DNA from: Planctomycetaceae bacterium
GTDB lineage: Bacteria; Planctomycetota; Planctomycetia; Planctomycetales; Planctomycetaceae
Assembly: GCA_021732785.1 (NCBI GenBank)
Contig: JAKFUG010000001.1
Location: forward strand, 62,001 to 126,000
Length of the DNA stretch: 64,000 nt
Direction: 5' to 3'
Shown piece by piece: positions 2,465 through 55,377 of this stretch. Every line of letters begins with the position of its first letter. Within the stretch, counting starts at the first letter, position 1. Made by a program: the position numbers and the translations under genes. Below the pieces are notes generated by a model. That model saw only the letters and a program-made list of their open reading frames with translations. It was not told the DNA's origin and did not search any database.

Positions 2465-2535
2465 GGGTCTCGGTCTTCGAGAAGTCGCGCGGACAACAAA
2501 ATGAGCGCCCCACCCTGCGGCGGTTCGCGTTGGAA

Positions 2536-10192: not shown

Positions 10193-10275
10193 TGGTTGGT
10201 GGTTTCGCCAGCCATTCGCGACAATCACGACGCGACTTTGCCATCCCCAACCGAATCTGTCACAGGAGCAGGTGC

Positions 10276-11172: not shown

Positions 11173-11264
11173 GGCTGCCGGAACGTGATCGGAAGCGCGG
11201 TTTCCCGATCGCGTCCCATGGCATACACTGCGGGGGTTCCGTTTCCTCCTGGAGTACACGGCGG

Positions 11265-12263: not shown

Positions 12264-12288
12264 TCTCTTCGTTCGGAAAACGATATTC

Positions 12289-19694: not shown

Positions 19695-19750
<56 letters not shown>

Positions 19751-19769
<19 letters not shown>

Positions 19770-21283
19770 CTTGATGAGATAAGAAGCCCTTCGGCGAGAA
19801 CGTCGAAGGGCTTTCTTGTTGTCGGGACTAGAGTTACGTCGTCGAGGACGAAGTTCAAAAAGACAATTTCCAAATACCGACGCTTCACCGGGTAGTCAGC
19901 CGTAAGCCATTTGCCACGAAGGTTTTGCGAAAGTTCAAAAGCCTTGATCGCAATTTCGGCGTTCTCGTCCAGTCCAAGATCGCAGGCATTCAATTTCAGC
20001 TTGAAGTTCGCCTCACGATCCCGATGCTCGGTGGCCTTGGCTGCATAGCCATCAGCATCAATCTCTTCGTTCAGCCGCATATTCAAAAGCTGATTCTTCT
20101 GCTGGCGAAGGAGTGAAAGCTGCCTTTGGATTTCTTCGGCCTTGAGCCGTGCGTCGTCCTGCTCGTACTGTGTCCGCACCCGCAACTGTGCTGCGAACCA
20201 CTCCCGCACGTCATCACTCTCGATGCGCATCTTGTCGAAGATCGCCAGCATTTGCAGGTCGATCTTTTCTTCGTTGAGACGAACCCGTGGATGGCCCGGA
20301 GCGTTGTACTGCGAGCAGCGGTAGTAAACGTATTCCTTCCCGGTCGTCTTCTTGACGACCGACTCCCCGGTGACGATGGCGTTGCAGTGTTTGCACTTAA
20401 TCAGACCACCGGCGTAGGTGAGTTCATGGGAACGGTAGACCTTCTCCCCCAACAGCACTTGCACCGTGTCCCAAGTCACCCGATCAACCAGCGCCTTGTG
20501 CGTCCCAGGATGCCACTGCCCCTGGTACTTCACTTCCCCGATGTATGAACGATCCCGGAGAATGGCGTACAGCTTACTTCGTGGAAATCGAGGTACGGAA
20601 TCGCTGTAGGGGATGCCTTCTTGGTAGAGACGCTCCTGAAGGCTGTCGAGGGTCAAATGATGATATGCGTACAGATCGAAGAGCTTGGTGACTTTTGTGC
20701 CGTTCACGGGATGAACCTCCACAAGACCACGTTTCTCAACTCGGATATTTCGATAACCGTAAGGAGCCTTCTGCGGGAACAGACCTTCTTCGACCCGCCG
20801 CTTCACGCCACCTTTCACGTCGATTGATTGCTGCTCCGTGTAGAAGCTCGCCATGCTCGCCAACATGCGGCGTTGCATCCGGCCTGCGGGCGTATTCTCG
20901 GTGGGTTGCGTCACCGAAAAGAATGGCACGTCGAATTCTGACTCCAGCCGTTCAAGCTCAACGTAGTCGAACAGGTTTCGAGCCGCCCGGTCAACCTTGT
21001 AGAACAAGATTCCGTCAAGCTCGATAGCGTGCTTCTTGGCGTATGCAATCAGTTCCTTGAACGTCTTGCGTTCGTCCGTCTTGCTCGCCGTTTCTGCAAT
21101 TCGCCAGAGCTTGATGATCGTTCCATTCTGCCTCTCGGCGTAGGCGTTCAGAGCGTCAACTTGAATGTCGAGTGAGAAGCCTTCACGCTCTTGTTCCCGA
21201 CTGCTGACCCGTGCCAGGGCAATGAACCGCTTCTTTTTCTGCGTGCTTGTCTTGGGTTTGTTGTTTGACTTGGGCTTCTTCAT
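19751..21283 (-). CDS. large serine recombinase (integrase of the element)
   Basis: A 510-residue site-specific recombinase. Resolvase catalytic domain at about residues 18-165 with FIALARVSSREQ (nucleophile probably S27) and YKVDRAARNLFDYVELE. The recombinase domain spans about 185-290 (APYGYRNI, YAILRDRSYIGEVKYQGQW), a zinc-ribbon-like CKHC with a later YYRCSQY follows, then a coiled coil rich in Gln/Leu/Lys (about 380-430). The final residues SSSRAGGI are read from tRNA-Pro sequence on the opposite strand. The gene starts inside the coupled upstream gene (ATGA overlap at 21280-21283). Confidence 0.92.
19784..19813 (+). terminator. hairpin terminator after tRNA-Pro, inside the integrase 3' end
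   Basis: Perfect 10-bp stem AAGCCCTTCG / CGAAGGGCTT with a 10-base loop, followed by TTCTTGTTGT on the plus strand. On the minus strand the same bases encode the integrase C-terminal PFDVLAEGLL. Confidence 0.75.
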
Positions 21284-21894
21284 CGGATGGCCTCCCTGCC
21301 TTCGCCAACCTTCGGGTACATCACGTCCAGAAGATTGTGGACGTTAATCAGAATTTCCAGAGCGTCGTCAGCGGTCAGGAGTTGCCGGTAATACCGTTGC
21401 CAGACTCGGAGTGTGTCCTCGATCTCGTTGCCCGTGATCCATTTCGGTGCGCCGGGCGGGACAACCGAAAACCACTCCTTCACCGATTCACGTTGATGGC
21501 GAACTTCTTGGCCCTTTACCCGGATGGACGGAAGGCCCTGCCGAAGAAGTTGCTCATATTGTTCGGCGGTGAGTCCTCGCCAAGCCATCAGGTCTTGGGC
21601 CGACATCGGCTCGTCGCTGCCCTTGAATCCCCAGGGATAGACGAACTCAACAGTGTCGCCAGGAAGAACCCGGTAATGGCGTCCGAAACGCTGGCCGTTG
21701 ATGAATGGAACGCACCATCGGGGCGCATTCAGAACTTCACGAGTCCAGATGTGGATGGACGCAACAGATTGCCCCACCGAGTTGGACAAGATTATGTCGT
21801 TGGCCCCATAGATGACCTTCACCGAGCAGGCAGTCGCCACGCCGGGAAAACCGATGGGGTTCGGACGATCAGAACGATTTCTTACGGCAACCAT
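21280..21894 (-). CDS. unknown protein with a possible beta-grasp half and HTH half, coupled to the integrase
   Basis: A 204-residue protein. The N-terminal 95 residues contain VCFINGQ-like phrases (CVPFINGQRFGRHYRVLPGD, then TVEFVYP) that recall ThiS/MoaD-type beta-grasp sequences. The rest (LTAEQYEQLLRQGLPSIRVK and RHQRESVKEWF) resembles excisionase-type HTH proteins. Its stop overlaps the integrase start (ATGA), so the two are probably co-translated. A role in controlling excision is an inference; no named family is recognised. Confidence 0.6.
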   Translation of the reverse strand: MVAVRNRSDRPNPIGFPGVATACSVKVIYGANDIILSNSVGQSVASIHIWTREVLNAPRWCVPFINGQRFGRHYRVLPGDTVEFVYPWGFKGSDEPMSAQDLMAWRGLTAEQYEQLLRQGLPSIRVKGQEVRHQRESVKEWFSVVPPGAPKWITGNEIEDTLRVWQRYYRQLLTADDALEILINVHNLLDVMYPKVGEGREAIR

Positions 21895-27206: not shown

Positions 27207-27279
27207 ATATCGGTGAAGCCCCTCTTCTTTTCATGATGAGAAATCTCGCCAGCACACTACATAAGTGCGGAGGATCATC

Positions 27280-31413: not shown

Positions 31414-31423
31414 AGTGTACCCG
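31414..31423 (+). promoter_or_regulatory. AGTGTACCCG motif, copy 1
   Basis: 38 bases before the ArdC ATG. Extended similarity with the copy at 39935: both continue CAGG, then TTGTT/TGTTG and TCAACC. Confidence 0.5.
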
Positions 31424-31461
31424 TCAGGTTGTTCAACCAACTTTCGACGGGGATCACTGCC

Positions 31462-32379
31462 ATGCTTTCGCAATCAGCCATTCGTGAAGACGTAACAAAC
31501 CGAGTCGTCGCCGCTCTCCAGTCAGGAGCCGTCCCGTTCTGGCGACAGACGTGGACAAAGAGCGAGAACTCCGGCACGCCGACCAGTGCGGTGTCAGGCA
31601 AGCCCTACCGAGGTATTAACCGAATTCTTTTGTCGTTGCTGGGCCACGAATCGAAGTGGTTCGCCACCTACGCCGGATGGCGCAGTCTCGGTGGTCAGGT
31701 TCGTCGTCACGAACGAGGCGTGACAGCAATTCTTTACAAGCCCGTCACGAAGAAGAAGGTGAACGACGATGGCGAAGAGGAGCAGAGTTCCTTCGCCTTC
31801 ATGAAGACCTTCAGTCTCTTTCACATCTCCCAGGTCGATGGCGATTTGAGCCGGTTCCGGGACACGAAGAAGCCTGACAGCGAACCGACGTTTGTGGATT
31901 ACGGCCCCGCTGAAGATGTCTTTGCTGCGACCGGGGCCGATTTGCGTTTTGGTGGTGGTCGTGCGTTTTATTCGCCGAGTAGTGACTTCATTCAAATGCC
32001 CCAAAAGAGTGCTTTCCAGCAGGCCCACGAGTATTACGGCGTGCTGGCCCATGAAACCGTGCATTGGTCAGGTCACGAGTCTCGTCTCAATCGGCTGAAG
32101 AAGTTTGCACGGTTCGGCGACGAGTCGTATGCGGTCGAAGAACTGGTGGCCGAGCTTGGGGCTGCATACTTGGTGAACGAGATCGGCCTTCCTCAGTCCG
32201 ATGATCTGAGCAATGTGGTCAATTATTTAAGCCATTGGGTAAAGGTACTTCAGCGGGACCATACTGCGATATTTTCGGTTGCAGCCTCAAGTTCTGCGGC
32301 AGTAGATCACATCCTGGAGTACAGCCGCCCAAAGGAAGAGCCGGTTGATGAATCGCAGGAGGCGATGGTGACTGTCTAA
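31462..32379 (+). CDS. ArdC-like antirestriction protein (ssDNA-binding domain plus zincin domain)
   Basis: A 305-residue protein. N-terminal ArdC ssDNA-binding domain (about 1-125: IREDVTNRVVAALQSG, PFWRQTW, PYRGINRILL). C-terminal MPTase-like domain with zinc motif HETVH (197-201) and EELVAE (226-231). ArdC proteins protect incoming plasmid DNA from host restriction. The ATG at 31462 is chosen over the one at 31390 because family N-termini begin near MxxxxIRxDVTxRV, and the shared motif at 31414 then sits in the leader. Confidence 0.85.
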   Translation: MLSQSAIREDVTNRVVAALQSGAVPFWRQTWTKSENSGTPTSAVSGKPYRGINRILLSLLGHESKWFATYAGWRSLGGQVRRHERGVTAILYKPVTKKKVNDDGEEEQSSFAFMKTFSLFHISQVDGDLSRFRDTKKPDSEPTFVDYGPAEDVFAATGADLRFGGGRAFYSPSSDFIQMPQKSAFQQAHEYYGVLAHETVHWSGHESRLNRLKKFARFGDESYAVEELVAELGAAYLVNEIGLPQSDDLSNVVNYLSHWVKVLQRDHTAIFSVAASSSAAVDHILEYSRPKEEPVDESQEAMVTV

Positions 32380-32400
32380 GTCAACATCAGGTGAAGTTGT

Positions 32401-32420
32401 CCGGGTCAGAGATGGCCCGG
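32401..32420 (+). terminator. hairpin after ardC-like gene
   Basis: CCGGGTC (32401-32407) pairs with GGCCCGG (32414-32420, one G-T pair), followed by CTTCTTCTTC. Confidence 0.6.
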
Positions 32421-32445
32421 CTTCTTCTTCAAGCCCTTTAGGTCA

Positions 32446-32455
32446 AGTGTACCCT
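32446..32455 (+). promoter_or_regulatory. AGTGTACCCT motif, copy 2
   Basis: Located 7 bases before the first ATG of the next gene, closer than the other copies, so the true start of that gene may be downstream or the transcript may have a very short leader. Confidence 0.45.
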
Positions 32456-32462
32456 AGGGGGT

Positions 32463-32948
32463 ATGAAGACCTACAAGCACATCAACGGAACTAGCTTTGA
32501 CGAACGGACGCCGGACGAAGTGATTCGGGTACTCGAATCGGCCAGACAGAATCGGACGAGACTCCACATCAGCCTGGGCGACACCGCCTCTGGCCGGGAT
32601 TGGCTCGAAGAATTCGAGACTCACGGTTACGTCGGTCGCTCGATGGGGCCGGTGAAAGTGCCGCTGCTTGTGGCCAACACGAGATCGTTGGGCGGCGGTT
32701 CGATTCTCGCCCACTGCATCGTGCGAATCAGGACGAGTGCCGGTGGTCGGGTTCTGTGGCAACATCCCGACTACCACCACGGGACGTTGGAGATTCGGCA
32801 GAAGACCGAACCTGTGACGTTGCCGGACGGTCGAACACTGACGGTGGATGTTCTTCGTGATGGAGAACTTCACGCCAGCTTCGAGGACATGCAAAAGGCC
32901 CGGCGTTGGGTCAACAAACACGGCGTGATCGCACCGATTGCGGCGTAA
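32463..32948 (+). CDS. conserved hypothetical protein of plasmid type
   Basis: A 161-residue protein, MKTYKHINGTSFDERTPDEV. Segments RTRLHISLGDTASGRDWLEE, VGRSMGPVKVPLL and HCIVRIRTSAGGRVLW recall small proteins found on plasmids and integrative elements; function unknown. AGGGGG sits directly before the ATG. A RuvB gene follows. Confidence 0.62.
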   Translation: MKTYKHINGTSFDERTPDEVIRVLESARQNRTRLHISLGDTASGRDWLEEFETHGYVGRSMGPVKVPLLVANTRSLGGGSILAHCIVRIRTSAGGRVLWQHPDYHHGTLEIRQKTEPVTLPDGRTLTVDVLRDGELHASFEDMQKARRWVNKHGVIAPIAA

Positions 32949-32979
32949 TGACTCACGAGACATTCCAGGAGTATCTGAG

Positions 32980-33969
32980 ATGGACGACCAGCAAGAGCCG
33001 AATGAACTGCGAGACATCAGGGACGTGCAACCGACTGCGTTCCGACAAATCATTGGACAAGAGCATGTGAAAAAGGCCCTGGAGATTGCTGTAGAGGCTT
33101 CATTCGCAGAACAGAAGCGCCTCGATGACGTGCTGCTGTGCGGCCCGCCCGGACTCGGCAAGACCGGCTTCGTAACGGTGTTGCAACACGAGCTTGGACT
33201 ACCACCGTCGAAGGTAAAAACCATCCTGGCGCAGTCAATCTCGAACACCGCCGAACTGAACAGTGTGATGCTCAGTGCAACAGAAGGGTTGCTGTTTTTG
33301 GACGAACTGGCGCTCCTGTCGGCCTCGATTCAACATAACTTGCTCAAAATTCTGGACACTCGGACCATCGACATCAACACGGGCAAGACCGTGACCTCGA
33401 TTCCGGTCGCTCCGTTCACGCTGGTCGGCGCTACGACAGACCCGGACGGCGTGATCGCTCCGTTGATTGATCGTTTTAGATTAGTCCTGCACTTGGACTA
33501 TTTCAGCGAGGACGAACTTGCACAGATCGTGCGGCAGCGTCTTGGGGCGATGCGCTGGAAGTACGAGTCGGAGTTGCTGCACGAGATTGCTCGGCGGGCG
33601 AGACAGACGCCTCGAATCGCCTTGCGATTGCTGGCTTCGTGCCGTCGATGGCAAGTCGCCGAAGGCAGTGACGTGTTGACCGTCGATCACCTTCGTCGGG
33701 CCTGCGAGGTCGAGCGCATCAGCGACCAGGGCCTCGACAATATGCAACAAAAACTGCTGCACCTGTTGGGCGGTGGTCCGCAGCGGGTCGGGGTATTGGC
33801 CTCGATGCTCGGAACCAGTCCGAAGGTTCTTCAAAAGACCGTGGAACCTTTCCTGATGCGCAGCGGGATGGTGGTGAAAACCGATGCCGGACTCAGAACT
33901 CTGACAGAAATCGGACAGAGGCATCTGGAGGATTTGCATCCTGCAACTGTCCGCAACTCGTCCAACTAA
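32980..33969 (+). CDS. ruvB: RuvB-like Holliday junction helicase
   Basis: A 329-residue AAA+ ATPase of RuvB type. Walker A GPPGLGKT (55-62), Walker B LLFLDELALL, sensor/arginine region TLVGATTDPDGVIAPLIDRF, and the C-terminal winged-helix domain (RVGVLASMLGTSPKVLQKTV) are present in the order of chromosomal RuvB. The N-terminal phrase is FRQIIGQEHVKKALEIAVEA. RuvA and RuvC are not nearby, so this is a stand-alone, probably element-borne copy. The start at 32980 has CAGGAG 8-9 bases before it. Confidence 0.86.
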   Translation: MDDQQEPNELRDIRDVQPTAFRQIIGQEHVKKALEIAVEASFAEQKRLDDVLLCGPPGLGKTGFVTVLQHELGLPPSKVKTILAQSISNTAELNSVMLSATEGLLFLDELALLSASIQHNLLKILDTRTIDINTGKTVTSIPVAPFTLVGATTDPDGVIAPLIDRFRLVLHLDYFSEDELAQIVRQRLGAMRWKYESELLHEIARRARQTPRIALRLLASCRRWQVAEGSDVLTVDHLRRACEVERISDQGLDNMQQKLLHLLGGGPQRVGVLASMLGTSPKVLQKTVEPFLMRSGMVVKTDAGLRTLTEIGQRHLEDLHPATVRNSSN

Positions 33970-34041
33970 CTTCCCGGTTTCGCCCGTGAACGATCCATTA
34001 TTCCTCCGGCAATCGTGCGATTAATGAAGGAGATTCATCCG

Positions 34042-34509
34042 ATGTCTGCCCCCAATAAGTCCATCAAGGCTGCGGTATCCGTCTCGGAAATGGCCGAGTT
34101 GTGTGAAGTGTCCAGAAGCCGCTGGTACGAATTAGTGGATGCCGGGGTCTTTCCGGCTCCCGTCGTCATCCTGCCGATCAAGCGCCCGGTTTACGACCGC
34201 TCTCTGATCGAGAAATGCCTCCAAATCAGAGAGACAGGGATCAGCCTTGGCGGTTGGCCGGTCGTCTGGAACCGGAAGCGGAAGAAGACTTCGCTGACGA
34301 AGCAGAAGGCCACACCACCTGCGAAGGGACAAACTGCCGACCCGCTCATTGAACCAATCTTCGATGCGGTCAAAGCCTTGGGGCTGACGACCACGATGCA
34401 GGCCGTGACCGATGCTGTCGCCGCAATCTACCCGACCGGGATCGAAGGCCAGGATCAGGGCGACCTGATTCGGAAAACCTTCCTCTATCTGCAAGGGAAA
34501 CGAACATGA
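34042..34509 (+). CDS. HTH (MerR/excisionase-like) DNA-binding protein
   Basis: A 155-residue protein. Residues about 12-60 (VSVSEMAELCEVSRSRWYEL, then RPVYDRSLIEKCLQIRET) form a HTH_17/MerR-like fold. A basic linker with KRKKTSLTKQKA follows and a C-terminal helical part. AGGAG lies 9 bases before ATG 34042. The stop overlaps the next gene (ATGA), so the two are coupled. Probably a regulator; target unknown. Confidence 0.68.
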   Translation: MSAPNKSIKAAVSVSEMAELCEVSRSRWYELVDAGVFPAPVVILPIKRPVYDRSLIEKCLQIRETGISLGGWPVVWNRKRKKTSLTKQKATPPAKGQTADPLIEPIFDAVKALGLTTTMQAVTDAVAAIYPTGIEGQDQGDLIRKTFLYLQGKRT

Positions 34510-34817
34510 ACCATCATTTGATCGCCCTGTATTTGTCCGCTTTTTTGATCGCTACTTCATTCACGGGGACAAGCCACGGACAGGAGAAGGCACGCAAAGG
34601 ATTCTTGTCCGTCTTTAAGGATGGCCAGTCGGTTTCTGTGAAGGAAGTCGCCGGTAGGTTTGAGATCACGCTGATGAAGGATGTGAAGCTCGGCCACCAT
34701 GTTGTCGAAATCGGGCCTGACTACCTCGTGATTGAAGACATCGCCGGAGTGACGGAAACCAGAATTCATGTGACCTCGATCAAGGCCATCGTCCGGCTGA
34801 AACTTCCCAAAGAGTGA
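34506..34817 (+). CDS. small secreted hypothetical protein
   Basis: A 103-residue protein with a signal peptide (MNHHLIALYLSAFLIATSF, cleavage near SHGQ). The mature part is about 78 residues, beta-rich by appearance, ending VTSIKAIVRLKLPKE. It overlaps the HTH gene by 4 bases. No family recognised. Confidence 0.6.
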   Translation: MNHHLIALYLSAFLIATSFTGTSHGQEKARKGFLSVFKDGQSVSVKEVAGRFEITLMKDVKLGHHVVEIGPDYLVIEDIAGVTETRIHVTSIKAIVRLKLPKE

Positions 34818-34826
34818 CCCCACAAA

Positions 34827-34852
34827 GATGCCAATTCTTCAGAATTAGCATC
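34827..34852. terminator. inverted repeat between the secreted protein and the resolvase
   Basis: GATGCCAATTC and GAATTAGCATC pair at 10 of 11 positions around TTCA. It may be a weak terminator, or an operator for the resolvase gene that starts 34 bases later. Confidence 0.45.
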
Positions 34853-34885
34853 GTTTGGAGTCGTAACTCCTGAAAGCACAAGACC

Positions 34886-35575
34886 ATGAAAGCGTTTTCA
34901 TATCTGCGAGTCTCCGGCAAAGGCCAAGTGCTTGGCGATGGTTTTCCTCGCCAGCGTGAAGCCATTGAAAAATATGCCAAGGCCCACGGCATCGTCATTG
35001 AAGAAGAGTTCAGGGACGAGGGCATCAGTGGCACGACAGAGTTAGCCGACCGGGATGGCTTGGCACGTCTGCTTGACCGGATCGAGAGCAACGATGTTCG
35101 TACCGTCCTCGTGGAACGGTCGGATCGTGTTGCCCGTGATCTCCTTGTCGGCGAAGTCATCCTTGGTCAATTTCGTGACCTGGGCGTGACTGTTATTGAA
35201 GCGGCCAGCGGTAACATACTTACCAGCGACGACGCCGATGCAACCAAGGTGTTGATTCGGCAAATTCTGGGGTCAGTTGCTCAGTTCGATAAAAGCGTGA
35301 CCGTTGCCAAACTGCGGGCTGCAAGAGATCGCAAGCGTCGGAATGAGGGACGGTGTGAAGGACGAAAGCCTTTCGGTGCAAGACCCGGTGAACAAGAAGT
35401 ATTTGATCGCATCATTGGACTCAGGCGGTTACGAAGGGGCCAGCGACGATTATCGTTTCGGAAGATCGCTGAGACACTGAATGGAGAGGGAGTCCTGGCA
35501 CGAAGCGGCAAGCCCTGGGATGGGACCACGATCAGGAACATAGTGGCTCGCCGAAAGACAACGAAGGCGACGTGA
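34886..35575 (+). CDS. serine recombinase (resolvase/invertase-like)
   Basis: A 229-residue protein. Catalytic domain MKAFSYLRVSGKGQVLGDGF (Ser in LRVSGKGQ), FRDEGISGTTELADRDGL, VLVERSDRVARDLLVGE, and a C-terminal HTH-like segment (LSFRKIAETLNGEGVLARSG, WDGTTIRNI). It resembles the short recombinases used for resolution or inversion. It is the third serine recombinase on the element. Confidence 0.87.
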   Translation: MKAFSYLRVSGKGQVLGDGFPRQREAIEKYAKAHGIVIEEEFRDEGISGTTELADRDGLARLLDRIESNDVRTVLVERSDRVARDLLVGEVILGQFRDLGVTVIEAASGNILTSDDADATKVLIRQILGSVAQFDKSVTVAKLRAARDRKRRNEGRCEGRKPFGARPGEQEVFDRIIGLRRLRRGQRRLSFRKIAETLNGEGVLARSGKPWDGTTIRNIVARRKTTKAT

Positions 35576-35581
35576 GGTCAA

Positions 35582-36169
35582 TCACACGCTTGCCCGGCAC
35601 TGCCAAGCCAGTCGTTCCTCGCCACGACTGGCGACCTCGGACACGACTTCATCAAGGCCCATGAACGCTTCCCAAGTCTCGATCCCCAGAGACTCAGCGA
35701 TTCGCCTGGCCACCATCGTTTCCAAGGCTTCGCTCCTGCAACCTTTCCAGCAGTGGTCGGCCAGGGCCACGAGACAATCCTCCAGGGCAAAGTCTTGCTC
35801 TGTTTCCCAAGTCCCATGCGTTCGAGCAAACCGTGATCGCTCCGGTGACACTCCATGTTGCTGTAGTACGCCGGGGCCGTCTTGTTCGTGCTTGTTGCCC
35901 GGCCCGGTCAACTCGTTCAGATGCAGAATCTTTCCGACATCGTGAATCGCAGACCCGAACAAAACGTCATCCCGGTCAATCGTGAGATCGGGCCATCGGG
36001 CATGAAGGGCATCAAAAATCTCGGCGGCGGCACCATGAACGAGGGCAAGGTGAACCACCAGACGAGGCGGCGCATTGAGCGTCTCCAATAGTCGCTGGGC
36101 TTCTTCTGGTAAGTCACGAAAAGGCACGAAGTCATCCAAGTCAAAAGTGAATTCTGTGAACACGTCCAT
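35582..36169 (-). CDS. HD-domain phosphohydrolase-like protein
   Basis: A 195-residue leftward protein. HD signature: VHLALVHGAAAEIFDAL, then GSAIHDVGKILHLNEL, HEQDGPGVLQQHGV and LVALADHCWKG, giving the H...HD...D metal-site pattern. HD proteins hydrolyse phosphate esters, often nucleotides. It converges with the resolvase (6 bases between stops) and diverges from the next small gene; its start codon overlaps an AGTGTACCC-like motif (36168-36177). Substrate unknown. Confidence 0.75.
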   Translation of the reverse strand: MDVFTEFTFDLDDFVPFRDLPEEAQRLLETLNAPPRLVVHLALVHGAAAEIFDALHARWPDLTIDRDDVLFGSAIHDVGKILHLNELTGPGNKHEQDGPGVLQQHGVSPERSRFARTHGTWETEQDFALEDCLVALADHCWKGCRSEALETMVARRIAESLGIETWEAFMGLDEVVSEVASRGEERLAWQCRASV

Positions 36170-36177
36170 TGTACCCT
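36168..36177 (+). promoter_or_regulatory. ATTGTACCCT motif, copy 3 (one mismatch)
   Basis: 35 bases before the ATG at 36213; it overlaps the start codon of the divergent HD gene, so binding here could affect both genes. Confidence 0.4.
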
Positions 36178-36212
36178 TGAGATCAACCCCTCAACTTCCC
36201 GGAGAACTCACC

Positions 36213-36482
36213 ATGAAAGTCGAACTCACCGGCCCGGACGATTTGGGGTTCTGGTATTTGACCAATGCAGACGGAAACGCTTTCCCGCTTGTCGAATCGC
36301 ACGAGGGCCATCCTGCCGCCGCTGCCCTGTTCGGTTGGCAAGCAACCGAAGGTGTCGAAGACCGGGAAGCGATCATCCAGGATGCCCTTGTGTTCTTGAT
36401 GGACCACATTGGAGATGAGATCGAAGCCCCGAAGGAAGCTGTCGATTACTTCAGTGAGTTGGAAGAGGAAGACGAGGAATAG
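36213..36482 (+). CDS. small acidic hypothetical protein
   Basis: An 89-residue protein, MKVELTGPDDLGFWYLTNAD, with HPAAAALFGWQ and an acidic tail SELEEEDEE. GGAG lies 7 bases before the ATG. No recognised family; it lies in a run of similar small plasmid-type genes. Confidence 0.58.
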   Translation: MKVELTGPDDLGFWYLTNADGNAFPLVESHEGHPAAAALFGWQATEGVEDREAIIQDALVFLMDHIGDEIEAPKEAVDYFSELEEEDEE

Positions 36483-36519
36483 GCCAAGGTTCATAGAGGA
36501 CCGACTTCCCGGTAGGTGA

Positions 36520-36529
36520 AGTGTACCCC
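36520..36529 (+). promoter_or_regulatory. AGTGTACCCC motif, copy 4
   Basis: 41 bases before the preferred start (36571) of the next gene. Confidence 0.5.
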
Positions 36530-36570
36530 TGCTAATGAAGACACAATTCATCGGCATGAGGAACACAATA

Positions 36571-37173
36571 ATGCTCGGCACATTGGACATCGAAGAAGCG
36601 GCGAAGAAGGCTGCTGGAAATTGGAAACGCTTTGATTCTTTTGTCTGGTTTCGTGATCGAGAACTCGATGACGCCGATCAGTGGAGCGTGATCTACACGC
36701 ACAACCGGGACAGCAGATTGCTCGACCAGAGCAATGCCCATGTCATCACAAAGGTGATGGAGCAATTTGCAGAATCCGACGAACCTGATGTCGTCTTCGA
36801 GAGCCACCATCATTGGGCGGTCGGCCACATTGACGGTTTCTCGGTCAAGGTCTTCGACCAGAACGGAGAGATTACCCCAGCATTTCGTGCATATCACGAG
36901 CTTGCCGAGCGTCTCGATGACTATCCGATTCTGGATGAAAGCGATTACTCGAACCGGGAATACGAAGCCACACTGGACAACATCAAGGACTCAGCGTGGC
37001 GGTTGAAGAACGATTTTCAACTGCCGGACGGCTGGGAAAGCGAAGTCTATTCGTGGCTATCGGACCATCGCAGCGGCGAGATCGAAAACAAAGACGACCA
37101 GGGCGGCTACCCGTCTGAGCAAGCACTTCGGGCAGCATTCGAGGCCCTGGGCTTCGATGAGGAGAAAGAATGA
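36571..37173 (+). CDS. conserved plasmid-type hypothetical protein
   Basis: A 200-residue protein starting MLGTLDIEEAAKKAAGNWKR. Phrases VIYTHNRDSRLLDQSNAHVI, HHHWAVGHIDGFSVKVF and YHELAERLDDYPILDESDYS recall proteins found on plasmids and phages; function unknown. The ATG at 36571 is preferred over 36535 because GAGGAA precedes it and the family seems to start near MLGT. Its stop overlaps the next gene by 4 bases. Confidence 0.65.
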   Translation: MLGTLDIEEAAKKAAGNWKRFDSFVWFRDRELDDADQWSVIYTHNRDSRLLDQSNAHVITKVMEQFAESDEPDVVFESHHHWAVGHIDGFSVKVFDQNGEITPAFRAYHELAERLDDYPILDESDYSNREYEATLDNIKDSAWRLKNDFQLPDGWESEVYSWLSDHRSGEIENKDDQGGYPSEQALRAAFEALGFDEEKE

Positions 37174-37382
37174 GCCGCACAAAAGTGATCGACTTCGTGG
37201 TGCGTCACCACGGGACCATCTGGACGTTCGAGCCAAAGACCGACACTGCCAAAGGCTTCGTTCGCACTGACCTGGAAGTGCAAGGTTGGCAATGGCTTGG
37301 CCCCGCCTTCGGCGTGGACCATCGGCTTGCGACCGATCTGATTGCGGCATTGGAAAGCGAAGGGTTTGTCATTGAAATGTGA
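37170..37382 (+). CDS. small hypothetical protein
   Basis: A 70-residue protein, MSRTKVIDFVVRHHGTIWTF, translationally coupled (ATGA) to the preceding gene. No motif recognised. Confidence 0.55.
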   Translation: MSRTKVIDFVVRHHGTIWTFEPKTDTAKGFVRTDLEVQGWQWLGPAFGVDHRLATDLIAALESEGFVIEM

Positions 37383-37405
37383 CGAGCCGAGAGGGGCCTA
37401 GCTCC

Positions 37406-37415
37406 AGTGTACCCT
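37406..37415 (+). promoter_or_regulatory. AGTGTACCCT motif, copy 5
   Basis: 49 bases before the GTG start at 37465; preceded by CTCC as in copies 6 and 7. Confidence 0.5.
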
Positions 37416-37464
37416 CCTGGGCATCACCACCGCATTTGTCTCTTTGTCTCAAGGATTACGCATC

Positions 37465-38976
37465 GTGACTGCATTTTTGAAAATAGAGAACCCAGGCCAA
37501 GCGCCAATTGAAGGATTCACTGTCCTCGGTGTATCGCTCGCATCGACCTCGAACAACGTCGGCGTCATCGGCCAGTTCGGGTCGGGCAATAAGCACGCTG
37601 TCGCCGTCCTGCTGCGGAACGACCTGTCGCCCATCGTCTACGCCGGAACGCTGAAGATGGAGTTCAGCACCCGACCGCAGATCGTTACTGATGGGGTGGC
37701 GAGCAAGGAGTTCGGTCGAGTTGTCGTGAAGTTCGGCGGCACGGACCCGAACACGGGGACCAGTCGCTCCAGCACGGAGGACTTGGGGTTCGTCTTGAAC
37801 TACGGGGAGAAGGATTGGACCGATGTGGCGCTCGCCCTGCGGGAGTTCGTGTCGAACAGCATCGACAGGTCCATCCGAGAAACCGGCGACTGGTCGGGCG
37901 TGAAGATCGAAGTTGTCGGCGAGTCCCAAGTCCGGGCGAAGGCCGGGTTCACCCGTGTCTACATCCCGCTCACGCCCGAAGTCCTCACGTTCTTTAACGA
38001 TTTGCCGAAGTGGTTCCTGCACTTCAGCGAGCCGCATCTGCTCGACAAGGCGATCCTGCCAAAGAACAACCGCAATCTCGGCGAGCGGAAGGCGGCGGTC
38101 ATCTATCGGCGAGGAGTGAGGGTCCGGGAATTCGAGGCGTCCGACACCGAATCGCTTTTCGATTACAACTTGGACAACCTTCGGCTCGATGAATCTCGTC
38201 AAGCGAACGATTGGGAAGTCCGAAATGCTGCGGGAAAGGCCCTTGCGAGCAGCGATAAACAAATCCTTGCCGTCCTCTTCGACCGGCTGTTGAATTCGGA
38301 TAAGCCCGCATGGGAATTCTCGTTCGATAGTTTCTCGATGCAGCCGTCGTATGGGGATAGTGCTGATGTCGTCGCCCAACGTCGGAAGAACTGGAGTGAG
38401 GCATTTATCCAGGTTGCTGGTGACGATGGCGTATTGACGGCAAAAGGCACGGTGAACCAGCTTGAGCGAAAGGGATACATTCCCATTGTCGCCTCTGAGA
38501 ATCTCGTGAGCGCCGCTGGTATGTATGGCGTTCAGACATCAGCAAGCGTGCTTTCTGCCGACGAGCTTTCGGGCCGGGAACTTTCAGACCCGACCCCGGA
38601 TGCCCAGGCAGCAGTGAACTTTGTGTGGAATCTGCTGGAGCAGATTGGCCTGACGAACGACAAAGAGAAACCGACCACCAAAGTCTTCACGTCGATTCTC
38701 GATGGCGGTGTGCAACTCAACGGATACTACCGTTCGGGAACTGTCTATCTCCATGAAGACTTGGGCGGTACAGCCTCAATCGTGGCTGGGACAGAAGCAT
38801 TGTCGGATCGGCTCGTAAAGGTGGCACTGGAAGAAGTCGTTCACCACATAACGCAGGCGACTGACAATAGCCGAGACTTTCAAAACTTCTTGCTCGATGT
38901 GGCAGTGAAGCTGGCTCGACGTGGCGAAGAGAAAGTCAGCGTTCGACGGGGCAGACAGTCAGCATCGGTGGCGTGA
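37465..38976 (+). CDS. GHKL-ATPase-like protein with zincin-like C-terminus
   Basis: A 503-residue protein. Near the N-terminus is GVIGQFGSGNKHAVAVLL, like the G-box of GHKL ATPases; about 75 residues later comes WTDVALALREFVSNSIDRS, like their N-box. The order is the reverse of ordinary GHKL proteins. Near residue 465, VALEEVVHHITQATDNSRDF resembles a zincin helix. I recall similar uncharacterised proteins in planctomycetes. ATP binding and peptidase activity are inferences. The GTG at 37465 has AAGGA before it; a TTG at 37444 is possible. Confidence 0.5.
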   Translation: MTAFLKIENPGQAPIEGFTVLGVSLASTSNNVGVIGQFGSGNKHAVAVLLRNDLSPIVYAGTLKMEFSTRPQIVTDGVASKEFGRVVVKFGGTDPNTGTSRSSTEDLGFVLNYGEKDWTDVALALREFVSNSIDRSIRETGDWSGVKIEVVGESQVRAKAGFTRVYIPLTPEVLTFFNDLPKWFLHFSEPHLLDKAILPKNNRNLGERKAAVIYRRGVRVREFEASDTESLFDYNLDNLRLDESRQANDWEVRNAAGKALASSDKQILAVLFDRLLNSDKPAWEFSFDSFSMQPSYGDSADVVAQRRKNWSEAFIQVAGDDGVLTAKGTVNQLERKGYIPIVASENLVSAAGMYGVQTSASVLSADELSGRELSDPTPDAQAAVNFVWNLLEQIGLTNDKEKPTTKVFTSILDGGVQLNGYYRSGTVYLHEDLGGTASIVAGTEALSDRLVKVALEEVVHHITQATDNSRDFQNFLLDVAVKLARRGEEKVSVRRGRQSASVA

Positions 38977-38985
38977 TCTACTTCC

Positions 38986-38995
38986 AGTGTACCCT
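38986..38995 (+). promoter_or_regulatory. AGTGTACCCT motif, copy 6
   Basis: 42 bases before the proposed start at 39038; preceded by TTCC. Confidence 0.5.
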
Positions 38996-39037
38996 CCCGA
39001 ATGTCACGAACCGATAACCGATGAAAGGCTGGAGGAA

Positions 39038-39325
39038 ATGATCGCTGTGCAAAGTCCACGATTTCAATTGGGGAAGGTCGTCGCCACACCGGGAGCTATC
39101 GAAGCACTCGCTGCGGCGCAGACCTCAGCTTGGGAACTTTTAAGCAAACACGTCATAGCCGATTTTGGAGACGTTGATGCGACTGATTGGCAGTCGAATC
39201 TCGACGCCATCAAGGAAGGCGAAAGGATTCTTTCAGCCTACACGCTCAAGACTGGTGAACGCTTATGGGCAATCACGGAAGCGGATCGGTCAAGTACCTG
39301 CATTTTGAGGCCAGATGAATACTAG
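39038..39325 (+). CDS. small conserved plasmid-type protein
   Basis: A 95-residue protein, MIAVQSPRFQLGKVVATPGA. Segments LGKVVATPGAIEALAAAQTS, GERILSAYTLKTGERLW and ITEADRSSTCILRPDEY form a pattern I recall from small proteins on plasmids across bacteria; function unknown. The frame is open back to 38921 inside the previous gene, so the ATG at 39038 is chosen; GGAGG lies just before it, unusually close. Confidence 0.65.
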   Translation: MIAVQSPRFQLGKVVATPGAIEALAAAQTSAWELLSKHVIADFGDVDATDWQSNLDAIKEGERILSAYTLKTGERLWAITEADRSSTCILRPDEY

Positions 39326-39333
39326 AGGACACC

Positions 39334-39930
39334 ATGACCAAGCCCCTCGACACCCTGATCGCCGATCTCGCCAGCCCCGACCGGCTGCTTCGCATGGAAG
39401 CGATTTGGACATTGAAGAAGTTTGGAGAAGTCGCACGGCCTGCGATCCCGGCGCTGAAACTGGTCATGGCCGACACGAGTGAGCCGTACCTTCAGATCAT
39501 GGCTGCTGGAACGATCAGCAGATTGTCACCCGAAGACCCCTCGCCAACGCCAGTGCTGGTTCAAGGGCTGAAGGATACGGCGAGTCTTCACCGAGTAGCG
39601 GCCATCGAATTCCTCGGCGAGCGGCGCAGCAAAACTGCCGTGCTGAATGCGATGACACTCTTGAGCGACGAAGACTTTCTGGTGCGGTTTGCGACAGGCA
39701 AAGCCATTGGAAAGGTTGTAGGTGACTACTTCCACGCCGTCGCTGTCTGTGTGGCGATGCTCAAGGACGACAACGCAACGAACCGGGTGATGGGCGGGGA
39801 ATGCCTCTTGAGCATTGGCCGCTACGTCGGCGATCACCTTGATTTGTTGACGATGGCAATGGCTGCTGACTGTTCATGGCAGGCAAGGATCGACATCGAG
39901 GAAGTGCTGGCCGAACTTCGACGCCAATAA
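39334..39930 (+). CDS. HEAT-repeat protein
   Basis: A 198-residue all-helical protein with about five HEAT-like repeats (LLRMEAIWTLKKFGEVARPA; HRVAAIEFLGERRSKTAVLN; LVRFATGKAIGKVVGDYFHA). Such repeats act as protein-binding scaffolds. It starts 8 bases after the previous gene. Partner unknown. Confidence 0.72.
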   Translation: MTKPLDTLIADLASPDRLLRMEAIWTLKKFGEVARPAIPALKLVMADTSEPYLQIMAAGTISRLSPEDPSPTPVLVQGLKDTASLHRVAAIEFLGERRSKTAVLNAMTLLSDEDFLVRFATGKAIGKVVGDYFHAVAVCVAMLKDDNATNRVMGGECLLSIGRYVGDHLDLLTMAMAADCSWQARIDIEEVLAELRRQ

Positions 39931-39934
39931 CTCC

Positions 39935-39944
39935 AGTGTACCCG
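39935..39944 (+). promoter_or_regulatory. AGTGTACCCG motif, copy 7
   Basis: 35 bases before the ATG at 39980, with extended similarity to copy 1. Confidence 0.5.
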
Positions 39945-39979: not shown

Positions 39980-40333
39980 ATGGACTCATTTACCCACGCA
40001 TACATCGAAGCCGCACTCTGGTCTTCGACGGACGAATCCGACGAGCAAGGCGGCGCACCGCTCGATGCCAACTATGGCCTCGACGACATAGCCCCAGAAA
40101 CACTGGCAAGCATTCTTGCTGACTGCAAGGCGTTTCAGGAGGCTCACGCCGACGACATCGGCGGCGAACTTGAACGAGCCGGTCACGATTTGTGGTTGAC
40201 CAGGAACGGCCACGGAGCCGGGTTTTGGGATGGAGACTGGCCAGATAATGTTGGCCAACGGCTCACCGATGCGAGCGACGTTTTTGGAACCGTTGATCTC
40301 TATGTCGGCGACGACGGGTTGATCTATTCGTAA
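39980..40333 (+). CDS. small conserved phage/plasmid-type protein
   Basis: A 117-residue protein: YIEAALWSSTDESDEQGG, LDDIAPETLASILADCKAFQ, HDLWLTRNGHGAGFWDGDW, VDLYVGDDGLIYS. This pattern recurs in phage and plasmid small proteins of unknown function. The ATG at 39980 is preferred because the family begins just before YxxAALWSS and an AAGGGAA site precedes it. Confidence 0.7.
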   Translation: MDSFTHAYIEAALWSSTDESDEQGGAPLDANYGLDDIAPETLASILADCKAFQEAHADDIGGELERAGHDLWLTRNGHGAGFWDGDWPDNVGQRLTDASDVFGTVDLYVGDDGLIYS

Positions 40334-41653: not shown

Positions 41654-41793
41654 CTCCGCCCCCCACCACCCCGCCCATGCGATCTCTTCTTTCTTGAACG
41701 TGGGCTGAAAAAAGTTCCGGCAGGGCGATTTCAAAAATGGGCGGGAGGGGGTTCTGTGCCGGGCCAGGGGGATTTTCACCGAAGAACACAGAA

Positions 41794-43260: not shown

Positions 43261-43319
43261 CGTGTTCTCCGGTCGTCAATGTTGCTGCAATAGATGTTGA
43301 GTTGATCGTGATTCGAGCG

Positions 43320-43880: not shown

Positions 43881-44085
43881 GAAGCAACTCTCGGCAGTCG
43901 GGATATTCAGTCTCGTTTCAGCCCTGCGAGAGCGAAGACCAAAGTGGGCCAAGAATCCGAAAAGAATTTTCCGTGGCCCATTTCTGGCACCCTTCTCGCA
44001 ATGCCATGTTGAGGCGAGACTGTGCCTGCTTTTTCCGGTAAAATGGGCGAAATCGTTGCTTTCGCCACGCCACCAGGAAATCGCC

Positions 44086-46603: not shown

Positions 46604-46648
46604 ATGCGATGGGCGGTTATTTCCAATTCCGTTTGCATAAGCACATTC

Positions 46649-51620: not shown

Positions 51621-51956
51621 CTACCTTTGCCTCTTGATCTCGGCCACCTTCGCCACCAGAAACCCCACTTCGTCGCCGTCGAGTTCTGCTACGGGGGCAA
51701 CGCCGTGGATGTTTTTGATGAGGTCTTCCGATGCACCCAGGAAAACCTTGAACGCCGCTTCGCCGTCGCATCGACCGAGCATGTGACCATCCGGCGTGAT
51801 GACCATCTCGATCAGCCTGGGCGTGGTCCAGTCTTCTCCAAGCAGACATCCGAGGATCGCTTGGAAGTGATCGCTAACCTTCACAGCCCGGAGCTTACGG
51901 GCGCAGTCCTGCCGTATCTGGTCGGGTTCACGGATTGGGATGTCTTCGGGGGTCAT
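51621..51956 (-). CDS. unknown protein coupled to brxHI
   Basis: A 111-residue protein, MTPEDIPIREPDQIRQDCAR, with FQAILGCLLGEDWTTPRLIE, VITPDGHMLGRCDGEAAFKV and FLGASEDLIKNIHGVAPVAE. It starts in the brxHI stop codon (ATGA at 51953-51956), so it is translated with the BREX operon. I recognise no domain. It is either an extra BREX component or the first gene of the small-protein run that follows. Confidence 0.6.
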   Translation of the reverse strand: MTPEDIPIREPDQIRQDCARKLRAVKVSDHFQAILGCLLGEDWTTPRLIEMVITPDGHMLGRCDGEAAFKVFLGASEDLIKNIHGVAPVAELDGDEVGFLVAKVAEIKRQR

Positions 51957-54061
51957 GCTTCACCATTCCCTTCTCCCACCACTACCACTCGCATCGGTTC
52001 CCGGCGAATGTTCGCAATCGCTTCCGGGTCGTTGAACCGGGCGAAGAACACTTCACCTGCAATCGGCGGCGGTAGGCATTCGCCGAATTTCAGATTGTCG
52101 ATGGCTTCCTGACTCGGCACGGGGATGATCTCGTCCCGAATGCGAGAAGCGATCAGGGCTTCCACGTCGGCGAGTTTCAACGTGGATGAAAACCGCAGGC
52201 ACAGGTTGTCCGTCTTCGCCTTGGAACCACCGCCCAGGTGATCCATGACGATGGAGTTTGCCAGCCCACCGGCGAAGGTCCACCACTGAACCTCGCCGTT
52301 CGCTTGTTGAACGAGCGTCGTGCGGTCATGCGATGCCCACGGATATTCGAGACGAATCTCGCCGATCTGGGCGGTCGCTCGCTGCGACCAATAGGGTTCC
52401 GTCGTTTCAGCGGCCAGGACACGACGAATGGCTTGGCAGACTCGGAAGCCGAGGAATTGACCTTCGCCTATCCATCGGGAACGGCCTTTCTCGTCAGTCG
52501 GTTCGACGTAGGCAATACGACGTTTCCAATCCAGGTGATTCGTTTTCCAGTTTCGACCCGCCAGCACGAGGATCACCGGGCCTTCTTGCTTTTTGTAGAA
52601 CGTCGATTCGTGGACATTGCCAAGTTCCTTTTGGCCACTGATGACACGAAAGAGCGGCGGCGAAGTGAAGACCGACAGGATTTCCAAGAAGTTCTTCCTG
52701 CCGTACTCAGCCTCACCCTCTGGGCCAAAAGAGAGAATCCCGGCGTCATCAAAGAGCGTTCCGGTGCGAACCAGATGGTCCACCAACAATTCAATCTGCT
52801 CGCTGGGCATGGCTGCGAACGCCGGTACGTCGGCCAGCCATTCCACGAAGGCACGTCGGCCAATCCCTCGCTCTTGCAGGATGAGCGCCATCAACTGCTG
52901 GGCAAGAATATGAAAGGGCTTGGGCGGTGCATTGACGGGTTCAACGAATCCACGGCCCCAAAGGTCAAGAAGGGCGGCGGCTCGCAACAACCCTTCGTCA
53001 CTGGTGGCCAAGAACAAGCAGTTGGATCGTGTACCCGCCCGTCGCCCCGTCCGTCCCATCCGTTGCAGGAATGATGAGACGGTGGCCGGGGCATCGATCT
53101 GTATAACTCGGTCCAGGTCGCCCACATCGAGGCCAAGTTCCAGCGAACTGGTGGCGACGATGACGCAATTCTGCTTTTGAGCGAAGGCTTCTTCCGCTGC
53201 TCGTCGTTCTTCAAGGCCGAGCGAACTATGCGAAACAAAAGTGTCGATCTCTCGTTCTCGCAGCAGCAACGCTAGTTGTTCGACTCTGGAGCGGCTATCG
53301 CAGAACACGAGCCGCTTCTCGCCTCGATGCAAAAGTGAAATCACCTTGGCCGCATTTTGGAGGGAGCCAACGTAATCCAGTTGCACGTCGGGAGCTTGCT
53401 TGGCGACAGGGGCAGGCGAAACCACTTGCCGTTGCCGCTCCGAACCGGATGACAACCACACCAGCATCTCGGCGGGATTGCCGACCGTGGCCGACAAACC
53501 GATGCGTTGCAGATCACGTCCCGCTAAACGATGAATTCGGGAGAACACTGAAAGCAGATGCCAACCCCGGTCGTCTCCGGCGAACGCATGAAGTTCATCA
53601 ATCACGATGGCTTGGACGTTCTTGAAGAACTCTCGATGGTCAATCTTTGTCGAAACCAAGATCGCTTCGAGCGATTCTGGCGTCGTAAGCAGACAATCGG
53701 GCCAATCGTCAAGAATACGCCGCCTTTCACCCTGAGTCGTATCACCGTGCCAGCAGGCGGCTCGCCGACCAACTAAGGAAAAGTATTTTTGAAGTCGCTG
53801 CTCCTGGTTGTTCAACAAGGCTCGAATTGGACTGACGTAGAGAACCGAAAGCCCGTTCCAACCCTCGGTGAGCATCTGTGAAATGACGGGGAAGAACGCC
53901 GACTCGGTTTTACCGCCCGCAGTCGGTGCAAGAATGACGAGATTGGCCCCGCTGAGAAACGCATCAATTGACAACGACTGCACTTCTCGCAATTCGCTCC
54001 AGCCGAGCGAATTGACGATGTGGTGTTGAAGCGCCGGGTGTAGTCGCTCGAATGCGGTCAC
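51953..54061 (-). CDS. brxHI: BREX type 2 Lhr-like helicase BrxHI
   Basis: A 702-residue superfamily 2 helicase. Motif I LAPTAGGKTESAF (45-57), motif II IDELHAF (DELH), motif III LSATVGN, motif VI QRMGRTGRR, then a long C-terminal part. The Lhr-like core and its position next to BrxD identify BrxHI of BREX type 2. In BREX the helicase is required for phage resistance, but its step is not settled. It overlaps brxD by 4 bases (ATGA). Confidence 0.88.
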   Translation of the reverse strand: MTAFERLHPALQHHIVNSLGWSELREVQSLSIDAFLSGANLVILAPTAGGKTESAFFPVISQMLTEGWNGLSVLYVSPIRALLNNQEQRLQKYFSLVGRRAACWHGDTTQGERRRILDDWPDCLLTTPESLEAILVSTKIDHREFFKNVQAIVIDELHAFAGDDRGWHLLSVFSRIHRLAGRDLQRIGLSATVGNPAEMLVWLSSGSERQRQVVSPAPVAKQAPDVQLDYVGSLQNAAKVISLLHRGEKRLVFCDSRSRVEQLALLLREREIDTFVSHSSLGLEERRAAEEAFAQKQNCVIVATSSLELGLDVGDLDRVIQIDAPATVSSFLQRMGRTGRRAGTRSNCLFLATSDEGLLRAAALLDLWGRGFVEPVNAPPKPFHILAQQLMALILQERGIGRRAFVEWLADVPAFAAMPSEQIELLVDHLVRTGTLFDDAGILSFGPEGEAEYGRKNFLEILSVFTSPPLFRVISGQKELGNVHESTFYKKQEGPVILVLAGRNWKTNHLDWKRRIAYVEPTDEKGRSRWIGEGQFLGFRVCQAIRRVLAAETTEPYWSQRATAQIGEIRLEYPWASHDRTTLVQQANGEVQWWTFAGGLANSIVMDHLGGGSKAKTDNLCLRFSSTLKLADVEALIASRIRDEIIPVPSQEAIDNLKFGECLPPPIAGEVFFARFNDPEAIANIRREPMRVVVVGEGNGEA

Positions 54062-55374
54062 GGGTCAAGCTCGATGTCATCTACGCTCTGGGGCTGGGAT
54101 TCACGTTCAACGGGGGTCATCTCGTTGCTGTTGATCGTCAACTGGTAGTGTTTGTTCGGGTCAAATTCCTCGAACTGGTCGATTCGGTCCAGCACATCTG
54201 AAACCAGTTTCTTGAGGAATAGCCGAGGGGCGATACCGACCTTGCCGCCAAGTTTGCCGGTGACAGAACGGGCAAGCAGATCGATATATTCGTTCGGAGC
54301 AAGACGGCGTACTCGATCCGGGGATGTGCAATCGGCGGCGAACAAGTCACGCACTTTGATGCCGACCTCCAGAAGTCTTTCATGGTCGAAAGCAGAAAGA
54401 CGCAGTTGCACCGCACGAGGGTTGTCGAACCGGGGATCGGTCTGGAAGTCCACATGTAGTCGTTGGGCCAGCGGCTCCAACCGCCGCACACCCTGCGGTC
54501 CATCAAAGAACGCTGGGGTTCCTGTGGTCAGCAGGTAAAGATTCGGGAACCGCCCGCTGTCGATGTCATCAATCAACTGACGCAGGGCATTGAGTCCTTT
54601 TTCCCGCACGTCGCCTCGGACTCGTTGCAGCGTTTCAATTTCATCGAGAACCAGTACCAGACCGGAATAGCCGGAGTCTTTGAGAATCAGCAGCAGCCCA
54701 CGGAGAAAACTCAGAGCGGCGTAATGGTCAACATCCCCTTTGACACCCGCTTCTCTTTTCACTGCTGCTGCCACATGGGGTTGACCAGCCAACCAGCCTG
54801 CCAGCCCTTCGGCGGTGGCATGGTCATTCGCCCGCTGCGCCGCTCGATAGGCACGCAAGGCAGCGGCGAATTGCGGGGTGGCACGAGTGATCTCGGCGAG
54901 CCGCTGTTCCAGCAACTCATCGGCTCGTTTGGAGAGGGCCTTTTCATCACCGGGATCGATAGTGCCTTCAGCCAAGACATCTTCTTCAAGGCCGTAGAAC
55001 CACCCGTCCAGAATCGAACGGAAAGCCCCAAGAAAAGTGTCCGTTGTGGAAAGCTGTTCCATCGCTCGTCGGTATACAGTCTCCAAACGGTGAAGCGGAG
55101 TCTCCGTCTCCGAGATTTGAACCTCAGCTACAGCGAAGCCTTTCTTCTTGGCGAATTCCTGAACCCACCGACCAAAGAACGTCTTGCCGCAGCCATAGTC
55201 GCCACGGACGGCCTTGAACATCGACCCACCTTGGGCTACGTCGGCAAGTTCACTGGCAATCACCGGCTCAAATGGCCGTAGACCCACAGCCAAGAAATCC
55301 AGTCCACGTTGCGGAACGGTTCCCTTCCGCAGTGCAGCGATGATCTCTCGACGGCGTTCGTTGCTGATTTCCAT
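54058..55374 (-). CDS. brxD: BREX type 2 ATPase BrxD
   Basis: A 438-residue P-loop ATPase (DUF2791 type). RRREIIAALRKGTVPQRGLD at the N-terminus, Walker A GDYGCGKT (58-65), Walker B YSGLVLVLDEIETLQR. BrxD is a hallmark of BREX type 2. The ATG at 55374 lies 3 bases after the pglZ stop, and the gene overlaps brxHI, so the whole set should be one transcript. Confidence 0.9.
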   Translation of the reverse strand: MEISNERRREIIAALRKGTVPQRGLDFLAVGLRPFEPVIASELADVAQGGSMFKAVRGDYGCGKTFFGRWVQEFAKKKGFAVAEVQISETETPLHRLETVYRRAMEQLSTTDTFLGAFRSILDGWFYGLEEDVLAEGTIDPGDEKALSKRADELLEQRLAEITRATPQFAAALRAYRAAQRANDHATAEGLAGWLAGQPHVAAAVKREAGVKGDVDHYAALSFLRGLLLILKDSGYSGLVLVLDEIETLQRVRGDVREKGLNALRQLIDDIDSGRFPNLYLLTTGTPAFFDGPQGVRRLEPLAQRLHVDFQTDPRFDNPRAVQLRLSAFDHERLLEVGIKVRDLFAADCTSPDRVRRLAPNEYIDLLARSVTGKLGGKVGIAPRLFLKKLVSDVLDRIDQFEEFDPNKHYQLTINSNEMTPVERESQPQSVDDIELDP

Positions 55375-55377
55375 AGA

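Follow-up and report, generated by a model that had tools for sequence, protein, structure and literature searches.

The DNA analysed here, a 64-kb stretch from a Planctomycetaceae bacterium (the window), carries an integrative element with a primase and a module of accessory genes at 31.4-41.6 kb, most of which are preceded by one short repeated motif, hereafter the box. An orthologous element from another genus of the same family, L033, was reached through searches with the RuvB-like and 510-aa proteins and is used for comparison throughout. The genes and features of the element are as follows.

19695..19770, plus strand: tRNA-Pro
19751..21283, minus strand: large serine integrase; its overlap with tRNA-Pro is at the 3′ end of the tRNA
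31462..32379, plus strand: ArdC-like anti-restriction protein (ArdcN + MPTase-PolyVal, Pfam)
32463..32948, plus strand: 161-aa protein of a family common only to the window, L033, L094 and L095
32938..33969, plus strand: RuvB-like AAA+ ATPase, present in every boxed element examined (sequence clustering)
34042..34509, plus strand: HTH_17-like protein, the marker of the element family
34886..35575, plus strand: serine resolvase; L033 has a tyrosine recombinase in that place
36213..36482, plus strand: 89-aa gene, behind box 3
36535..37173, plus strand: 212-aa ORF (gene family 5), behind box 4; the start is more likely at 36571
37444..38976, plus strand: 510-aa ORF, behind box 5; the start is more likely the GTG at 37465
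38921..39325, plus strand: ORF of a small conserved protein (gene family 3), behind box 6; the start is more likely at 39038
39334..39930, plus strand: HEAT-repeat protein, in the unit of box 6
39980..40333, plus strand: gene of box 7, with no relatives among the fetched loci
51953..63984, minus strand: BREX-like cargo (BrxHI, BrxD, PglZ, BrxC/PglY, PglX; PADLOC), extending past the window

The tRNA-Pro gene is probably the integration target, and the integrase/tRNA-Pro pair probably marks the element's left end. A search for a right border in the 40 kb past the window gave no direct repeat of the tRNA-Pro 3′ end that reached 14 bases. Positions 41739-46648 encode a GYF-domain protein, an ECF sigma factor and a Ser/Thr kinase; L033 is without this segment at the same place, and the sigma/kinase pair recurs in several other elements.

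The box copies, with their counterparts in L033, are listed below.

31414..31422, plus strand: copy 1, AGTGTACCC, in the ArdC leader; an identical AGTGTACCC precedes the L033 ArdC ortholog at 4807
32446..32454, plus strand: copy 2, in the leader of the operon of the 161-aa, RuvB-like and HTH genes; the orthologous L033 site is ATTGTACCC
36168..36176, plus strand: copy 3, ATTGTACCC, in the leader of the 89-aa gene; ATTGTACCC at L033 9892
36520..36528, plus strand: copy 4, in the leader of the 212-aa ORF; TTTGTACCC at L033 10219
37406..37414, plus strand: copy 5, in the leader of the 510-aa ORF; ATTGTACCC at L033 11106
38986..38994, plus strand: copy 6, in the leader of the small conserved protein and HEAT genes; AGTGTACCC at L033 12684
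39935..39943, plus strand: copy 7, in the leader of the gene at 39980-40333; L033 has neither this box nor the gene
21314..21320, minus strand: TGTACCC, possibly the core of an eighth box; the serine integrase ATG follows after 30 nt

These seven plus-strand copies bear out the original prediction in number, coordinates, strand and leader position, including its division into six exact copies of AGTGTACCC and one, at 36168, with a single mismatch. The spacing had to be revised. Six copies had been placed 35-49 bases before the start; with start codons chosen by homology (to L033 and family members), the distances from box start to start codon are 48, 17, 45, 51, 59, 52 and 45 nt for copies 1 to 7, so that copy 2 is the exception at 17 nt and the remaining copies stand at 45-59 nt. 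A terminator-like hairpin lies at about 32401-32421, upstream of copy 2. The flank that copies 1 and 7 had been said to share, CAGG...TCAACC, is indeed common to both and is not a general feature of the leaders. Likewise, the statement that no equally placed copy occurs elsewhere in the window does not quite hold in view of the TGTACCC ahead of the integrase, a single 7-mer that is only suggestive as an eighth box core. Outside the element, a near-palindrome at window positions 2535-2555, GTGTACC-AAAC-GGGTACAC, resembles two inverted box copies and may be due to chance.

A genome-wide count had been proposed as a check on the frequency of the motif, and its result favours a special association with the module: across 6,691,477 bases, AGTGTACCC occurs exactly 10 times, and 6 of the 10 copies fall within the 8.5-kb module, all of them in the stretch 31414-39944. 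Two genomes of the same genus have six exact copies each, widely dispersed. When one mismatch or fewer was allowed over the 64 kb, 13 occurrences were found against a shuffle expectation of 5.0, and 1 of 100 shuffles reached 13.

The comparison with L033 identified the part of the box that is conserved. The core TGTACCC was kept at all six orthologous leaders (6/6), whereas the two bases 5′ of it vary in L033 (AG, AT or TT). The 25 nt on either side of copies 2-4 are only 24-48% identical between the window and L033 in an ungapped comparison, and therefore the TGTACCC core is the selected part; at copy 1, homology between the two elements starts one base 5′ of the box. An extra copy in L033 lies on the minus strand, ahead of a divergent short ORF, which indicates that box orientation follows the gene.

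To place the window motif in a wider context, we followed the marker HTH protein (homologs of window 34042), which was present in 17 of 170 genomes of the order and in 39 of 398 of the class. Matches in a genome collection (n=13) were titled Planctomycetota or its groups, or were MAGs titled only bacterium, and no relatives of the marker were found among viral contigs. Each fetched locus was then searched for its own over-represented words. Strong repeated boxes occurred in more than 20 loci, with 179 sites in 22 loci, and fell into about a dozen classes of single, asymmetric boxes about 9-13 nt long: TTGTACC-type, GGCACCCC, GGCACCTGCTA, TAACACCCGCTT, CGGACAC[C/T], GGACACCT, GTTGTACAG, GTACCAGAG, CGGACCA, CGACGGGYGTC and GTCAAARTGCG. 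Related elements also give the forms GGCACC[T/C], GGACAC[C/T], GGACCA and AACACCCGCTT. The first nine bases of GGCACCTGCTA reach up to 18 copies in 20 kb, and in five genomes GGCACCTGCTA was clustered within elements, with few scattered copies outside. As in the window, the boxes of related elements sit in leaders and are oriented with the gene. Among 130 leaders with a Shine-Dalgarno sequence and an ATG, the distance from box end to ATG had a median of 43 nt, its middle half spanning 41-47 nt; the distance from the preceding stop codon to the box varied between -1 and over 200. No recognisable repeated box was seen in several of the loci that have the marker HTH. As judged by these comparisons of DNA, the window motif is one case of a general system in which each element repeats its own box in the same place, one short element-specific box standing about 45 bases before most accessory genes of this element family.

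Some loci have further arrangements. In L098 (6005-6315) and L100 (6163-6265), extra boxes lie in non-coding DNA between two recombinase genes; L098 has four tandem and one inverted extra boxes there, and a convergent pair about 100 bp apart occurs in both loci. The region might have a control function or encode a small RNA. In L035, a long palindrome at 12276-12306 between divergent boxed genes has a box at both ends, pointing outward. In L046, five tandem TTTTACACG repeats at 10468-10553 form a non-coding, iteron-like array near a relative of the 510-aa gene.

Next, we asked whether box identity belongs to the element. For homology-supported genes, leader matches counted class by class gave 163 local versus 9 foreign boxes, while permuted class labels gave a mean of 29 and a maximum of 83. 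Read on the antisense strand, these leaders gave 7. Because the boxes had been found in the same loci, the count of 163 arises partly by construction; the scarcity of foreign boxes and the strand bias do not. ArdC homologs illustrate the pattern: their boxes differ from element to element, and every ArdC leader in which a listed box was recognised has the local one. Single hosts (G208, G381, G033 and G346) contain elements with different boxes, G381 for example having both GGCACCTGCTA and GGACCA; since one host can hold different boxes, the host does not set the box, and a host factor as the setter of box identity was ruled out.

A natural exchange separates the box from its neighbouring genes. 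In L090, the RuvB-HTH-recombinase block at 8783-11253 is closest to GGACCA-type elements, whereas both of its flanks are GGCACC-type. Only coding sequence was swapped, and the leader of the block keeps a local-type box, GGCACCCGCTAG. On gene trees, the number of box-class changes was 18 for the HTH, 16 for the RuvB-like protein, 16 for the recombinase and 12 for ArdC, against a minimum of 11. The L090 swap and the tree fit indicate that the box travels with the accessory backbone. At the level of sequence, box identity is thus a property of the element and not of the host, the gene family or the neighbouring recombinase block; position, orientation, conservation and restriction to the element are established in the same way.

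Two readings of the box can be weighed on these data. That the copies are chance or duplicated sequence draws on the fact that 9-mers recur by chance in 64 kb. The genome-wide count, the six retained orthologous sites, the strand bias and the different boxes of homologous elements all contradict it, and the copy flanks do not align, so the copies are not one duplicated block; these counts have already refuted chance, to which we assign practically no probability. The other reading makes the box a site of recombination, with the genes as integron-like cassettes. Three observations would be in keeping with cassettes: a stop codon often overlaps the box or precedes it, the window has a box-gene unit (copy 7) that is missing in L033, and the replaced block of L090 lies between two boxes. 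However, the window and L033 have unrelated recombinases 3′ of the HTH gene (serine versus tyrosine) and nearly the same box, which speaks against a recombination site; L036 and L041 likewise combine the same or nearly the same box with different recombinases (short and long tyrosine, respectively), and different boxes occur with similar recombinases. Moreover, spacing is tied to the ATG and not to the stop, the unit gained with copy 7 has no box on its right, and the block exchanged in L090 is coding sequence only. Cassettes are therefore a very improbable explanation.

The leaders were then examined for the kind of site that the box might be. No sigma-70-like enrichment was found upstream of or around the box, conserved -35/-10 hexamers were absent, and no conserved partner hexamer was found up- or downstream of it. 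The G content falls downstream of the box from 29% to 19%, as in a 5′ leader. The lack of a conserved -35/-10 partner weighs against the promoter/operator reading, in which transcription would be initiated at the box. Terminator-like hairpins with stems of at least 8 precede boxes in 28% of cases versus 19% at random places, a slight excess. Nevertheless, these leaders are explained most simply by a promoter or operator where transcription starts.

Another possibility is that the box acts in RNA, as a common part of the 5′ leader that is bound by a protein or small RNA controlling translation or stability. The box does lie between stop and start codons; hairpins occur in about a third of the leaders, some with the Shine-Dalgarno sequence in or near the loop, which would also fit control at the RNA level, and some of them have differing, complementary arms. 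The two elements with extra non-coding boxes, including the convergent pair, could be taken in the same sense. Against this, hairpins are not general, and a conserved leader hairpin was rejected on that ground; the complement of the box is not in excess downstream in the leader, which dismisses pairing of the box with an anti-box there; and the convergent non-coding pair is missing from the other class members examined, so that a small RNA from the L098/L100 cluster was also discarded. We regard action in RNA as quite unlikely.

Within the promoter-or-operator reading, one branch holds that the box, instead of being a repressor operator, is the part of a promoter that a dedicated sigma factor or polymerase recognises. 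The fixed distance to the ATG, the single oriented block, the G-poor leader directly after it and the lack of a sigma-70-like promoter nearby are all compatible with such a promoter, and the window element, like eight other loci, has an ECF sigma gene with a kinase. Yet the segment with the sigma and kinase genes is missing from the syntenic place in L033, although L033 keeps all the orthologous boxes, and a search of four assembled GGCACCT elements detected no ECF homolog. The box is a single conserved block, against two in known ECF promoters. We consider a dedicated sigma factor possible, if doubtful, and the ECF sigma/kinase pair was set aside as the common reader, being recurrent but not general.

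Other candidate readers were evaluated in the same manner. The original prediction had named two HTH proteins of the element as possible regulators, and neither withstood comparison. The first, given there at 27280 and here at 27265, is rarely shared, with a homolog in only one fetched locus (L093) and none in L033; the second, at 34042, moves between box classes. Because L090 imported the HTH, RuvB-like and recombinase genes all three and kept its own boxes, none of them sets box identity, and as readers they were rejected by this swap and by the tree fit. None of the class-specific gene families resembles a box reader. A small MerR-like HTH family (27) occurred only in three GGCACC loci and one other, and a ParB-methyltransferase fusion at the left end was not detected in all elements of its class. 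Among the fetched stretches, which are mostly incomplete elements, no DNA-binding family that occurs in the boxed elements was also congruent with box class.

Several known systems resemble the box in part. On plasmid p576 (EGeRS2), a strong promoter is flanked by dual heptamers, TTATCCCnnTTATCCC, which are bound by the autoregulated RHH repressor Reg, itself encoded by the plasmid, and on pLS20 (EGeRS1) regions of 400-600 bp with inverted repeats take this place, where no sigma-A promoter was found (PMC8708921). The elements studied here share with both plasmids the combination of ArdC and variable mosaic genes in several transcription units, each behind the same regulatory sequence (PMC8708921). 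Regulons of this kind are expressed transiently once the plasmid has reached a recipient. The elements differ in that their regulatory sequence is one asymmetric box, about 9-13 nt long, whose distance to the ATG is fixed and which comes in a dozen classes. Furthermore, the strong sigma-A promoter that accompanies the operators of p576 has no counterpart, no sigma-70-like enrichment being found around the box, which is a likeness to pLS20. No Reg-like gene was found in the fetched stretches, mostly incomplete elements.

The stoperators of Cluster A mycobacteriophages are many asymmetric 13-14 bp sites oriented with transcription; most are not promoter associated, and a known immunity repressor stops elongation (PMC6550527, PMC9283540). 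They are uniform within a genome and differ between relatives, hence their recognition is element-specific. The boxes resemble them in being asymmetric, transcription-oriented and element-specific, and differ in being anchored to start codons at the median distance given above. The start-associated sequences (SAS/ESAS) of Cluster K mycobacteriophages are a short asymmetric repeat before many genes of one genome in one orientation, about half of the sites having an inverted repeat nearby (PMC3203893), a likeness that the box shares within its element. However, SAS lies directly upstream of the start, can partly pair with 16S rRNA and is conserved across the cluster (PMC3203893), whereas the box stands about 45 nt upstream, does not overlap the Shine-Dalgarno sequence and differs between elements. 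Single-stranded DNA promoters in the leading regions of F and ColIb-P9 drive anti-restriction genes upon entry (PMC8708921) and, like the box, recur ahead of several operons; in them, a larger structure of inverted repeats creates the promoter, and most leaders here are without such structure. In integrons, the identity of the attC site follows the recombinase, which is not the case here. By analogy, the system would work most like the ArdC establishment regulons of p576 and pLS20, with stoperator-like element-specific asymmetric sites; as far as tested, it is a member of neither group.

Taken together, we think it rather probable that the box is the cis-acting promoter/operator of one element-wide mobilisation/establishment regulon that includes ArdC. 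Each box would head a single gene or a short operon, and would be promoter/operator DNA at or just upstream of the transcription start. A putative trans-acting reader would have an element-specific specificity that has diverged among elements. Predicted members are ArdC, the block of RuvB-like, HTH and recombinase genes, and many small genes; in relatives, the tRNA-proximal recombinase would also belong to it. Defence cargo would lie outside the regulon; no correctly oriented box was found in the leaders of the BREX-like cargo. The regulon of ArdC, RuvB (through the operon of copy 2) and small genes foreseen in the original prediction is in agreement with boxes that are conserved, gene-oriented, start-anchored and element-wide. 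The likely purpose would be silence of these genes while the element is resident, and their joint activation at excision or on entry into a new cell, for which the control of the p576 ArdC establishment regulon by Reg offers a model. We think it unlikely that the boxes are interchangeable private identity tags on transcripts or promoters, read by a fast-evolving putative protein or RNA reader; if they were, elements in one cell would avoid cross-regulation, and an imported gene could be used only once it had gained the local tag.

For the regulon reading, element-local boxes even in closely related genes point to a shared on/off switch. With the box, a regulon could be traced from sequence alone in a family of planctomycete integrative elements that is large and for the most part uncharacterised; the members studied in more detail carry defence systems, for instance BREX or a type I restriction-like set. 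As the box predicts which small, uncharacterised genes act with ArdC, it may serve as a guide to candidate anti-restriction or establishment genes. Finally, the dozen parallel box classes and the natural swap in L090 provide a test set in which the specificity of an element and that of its regulator would be expected to change together.
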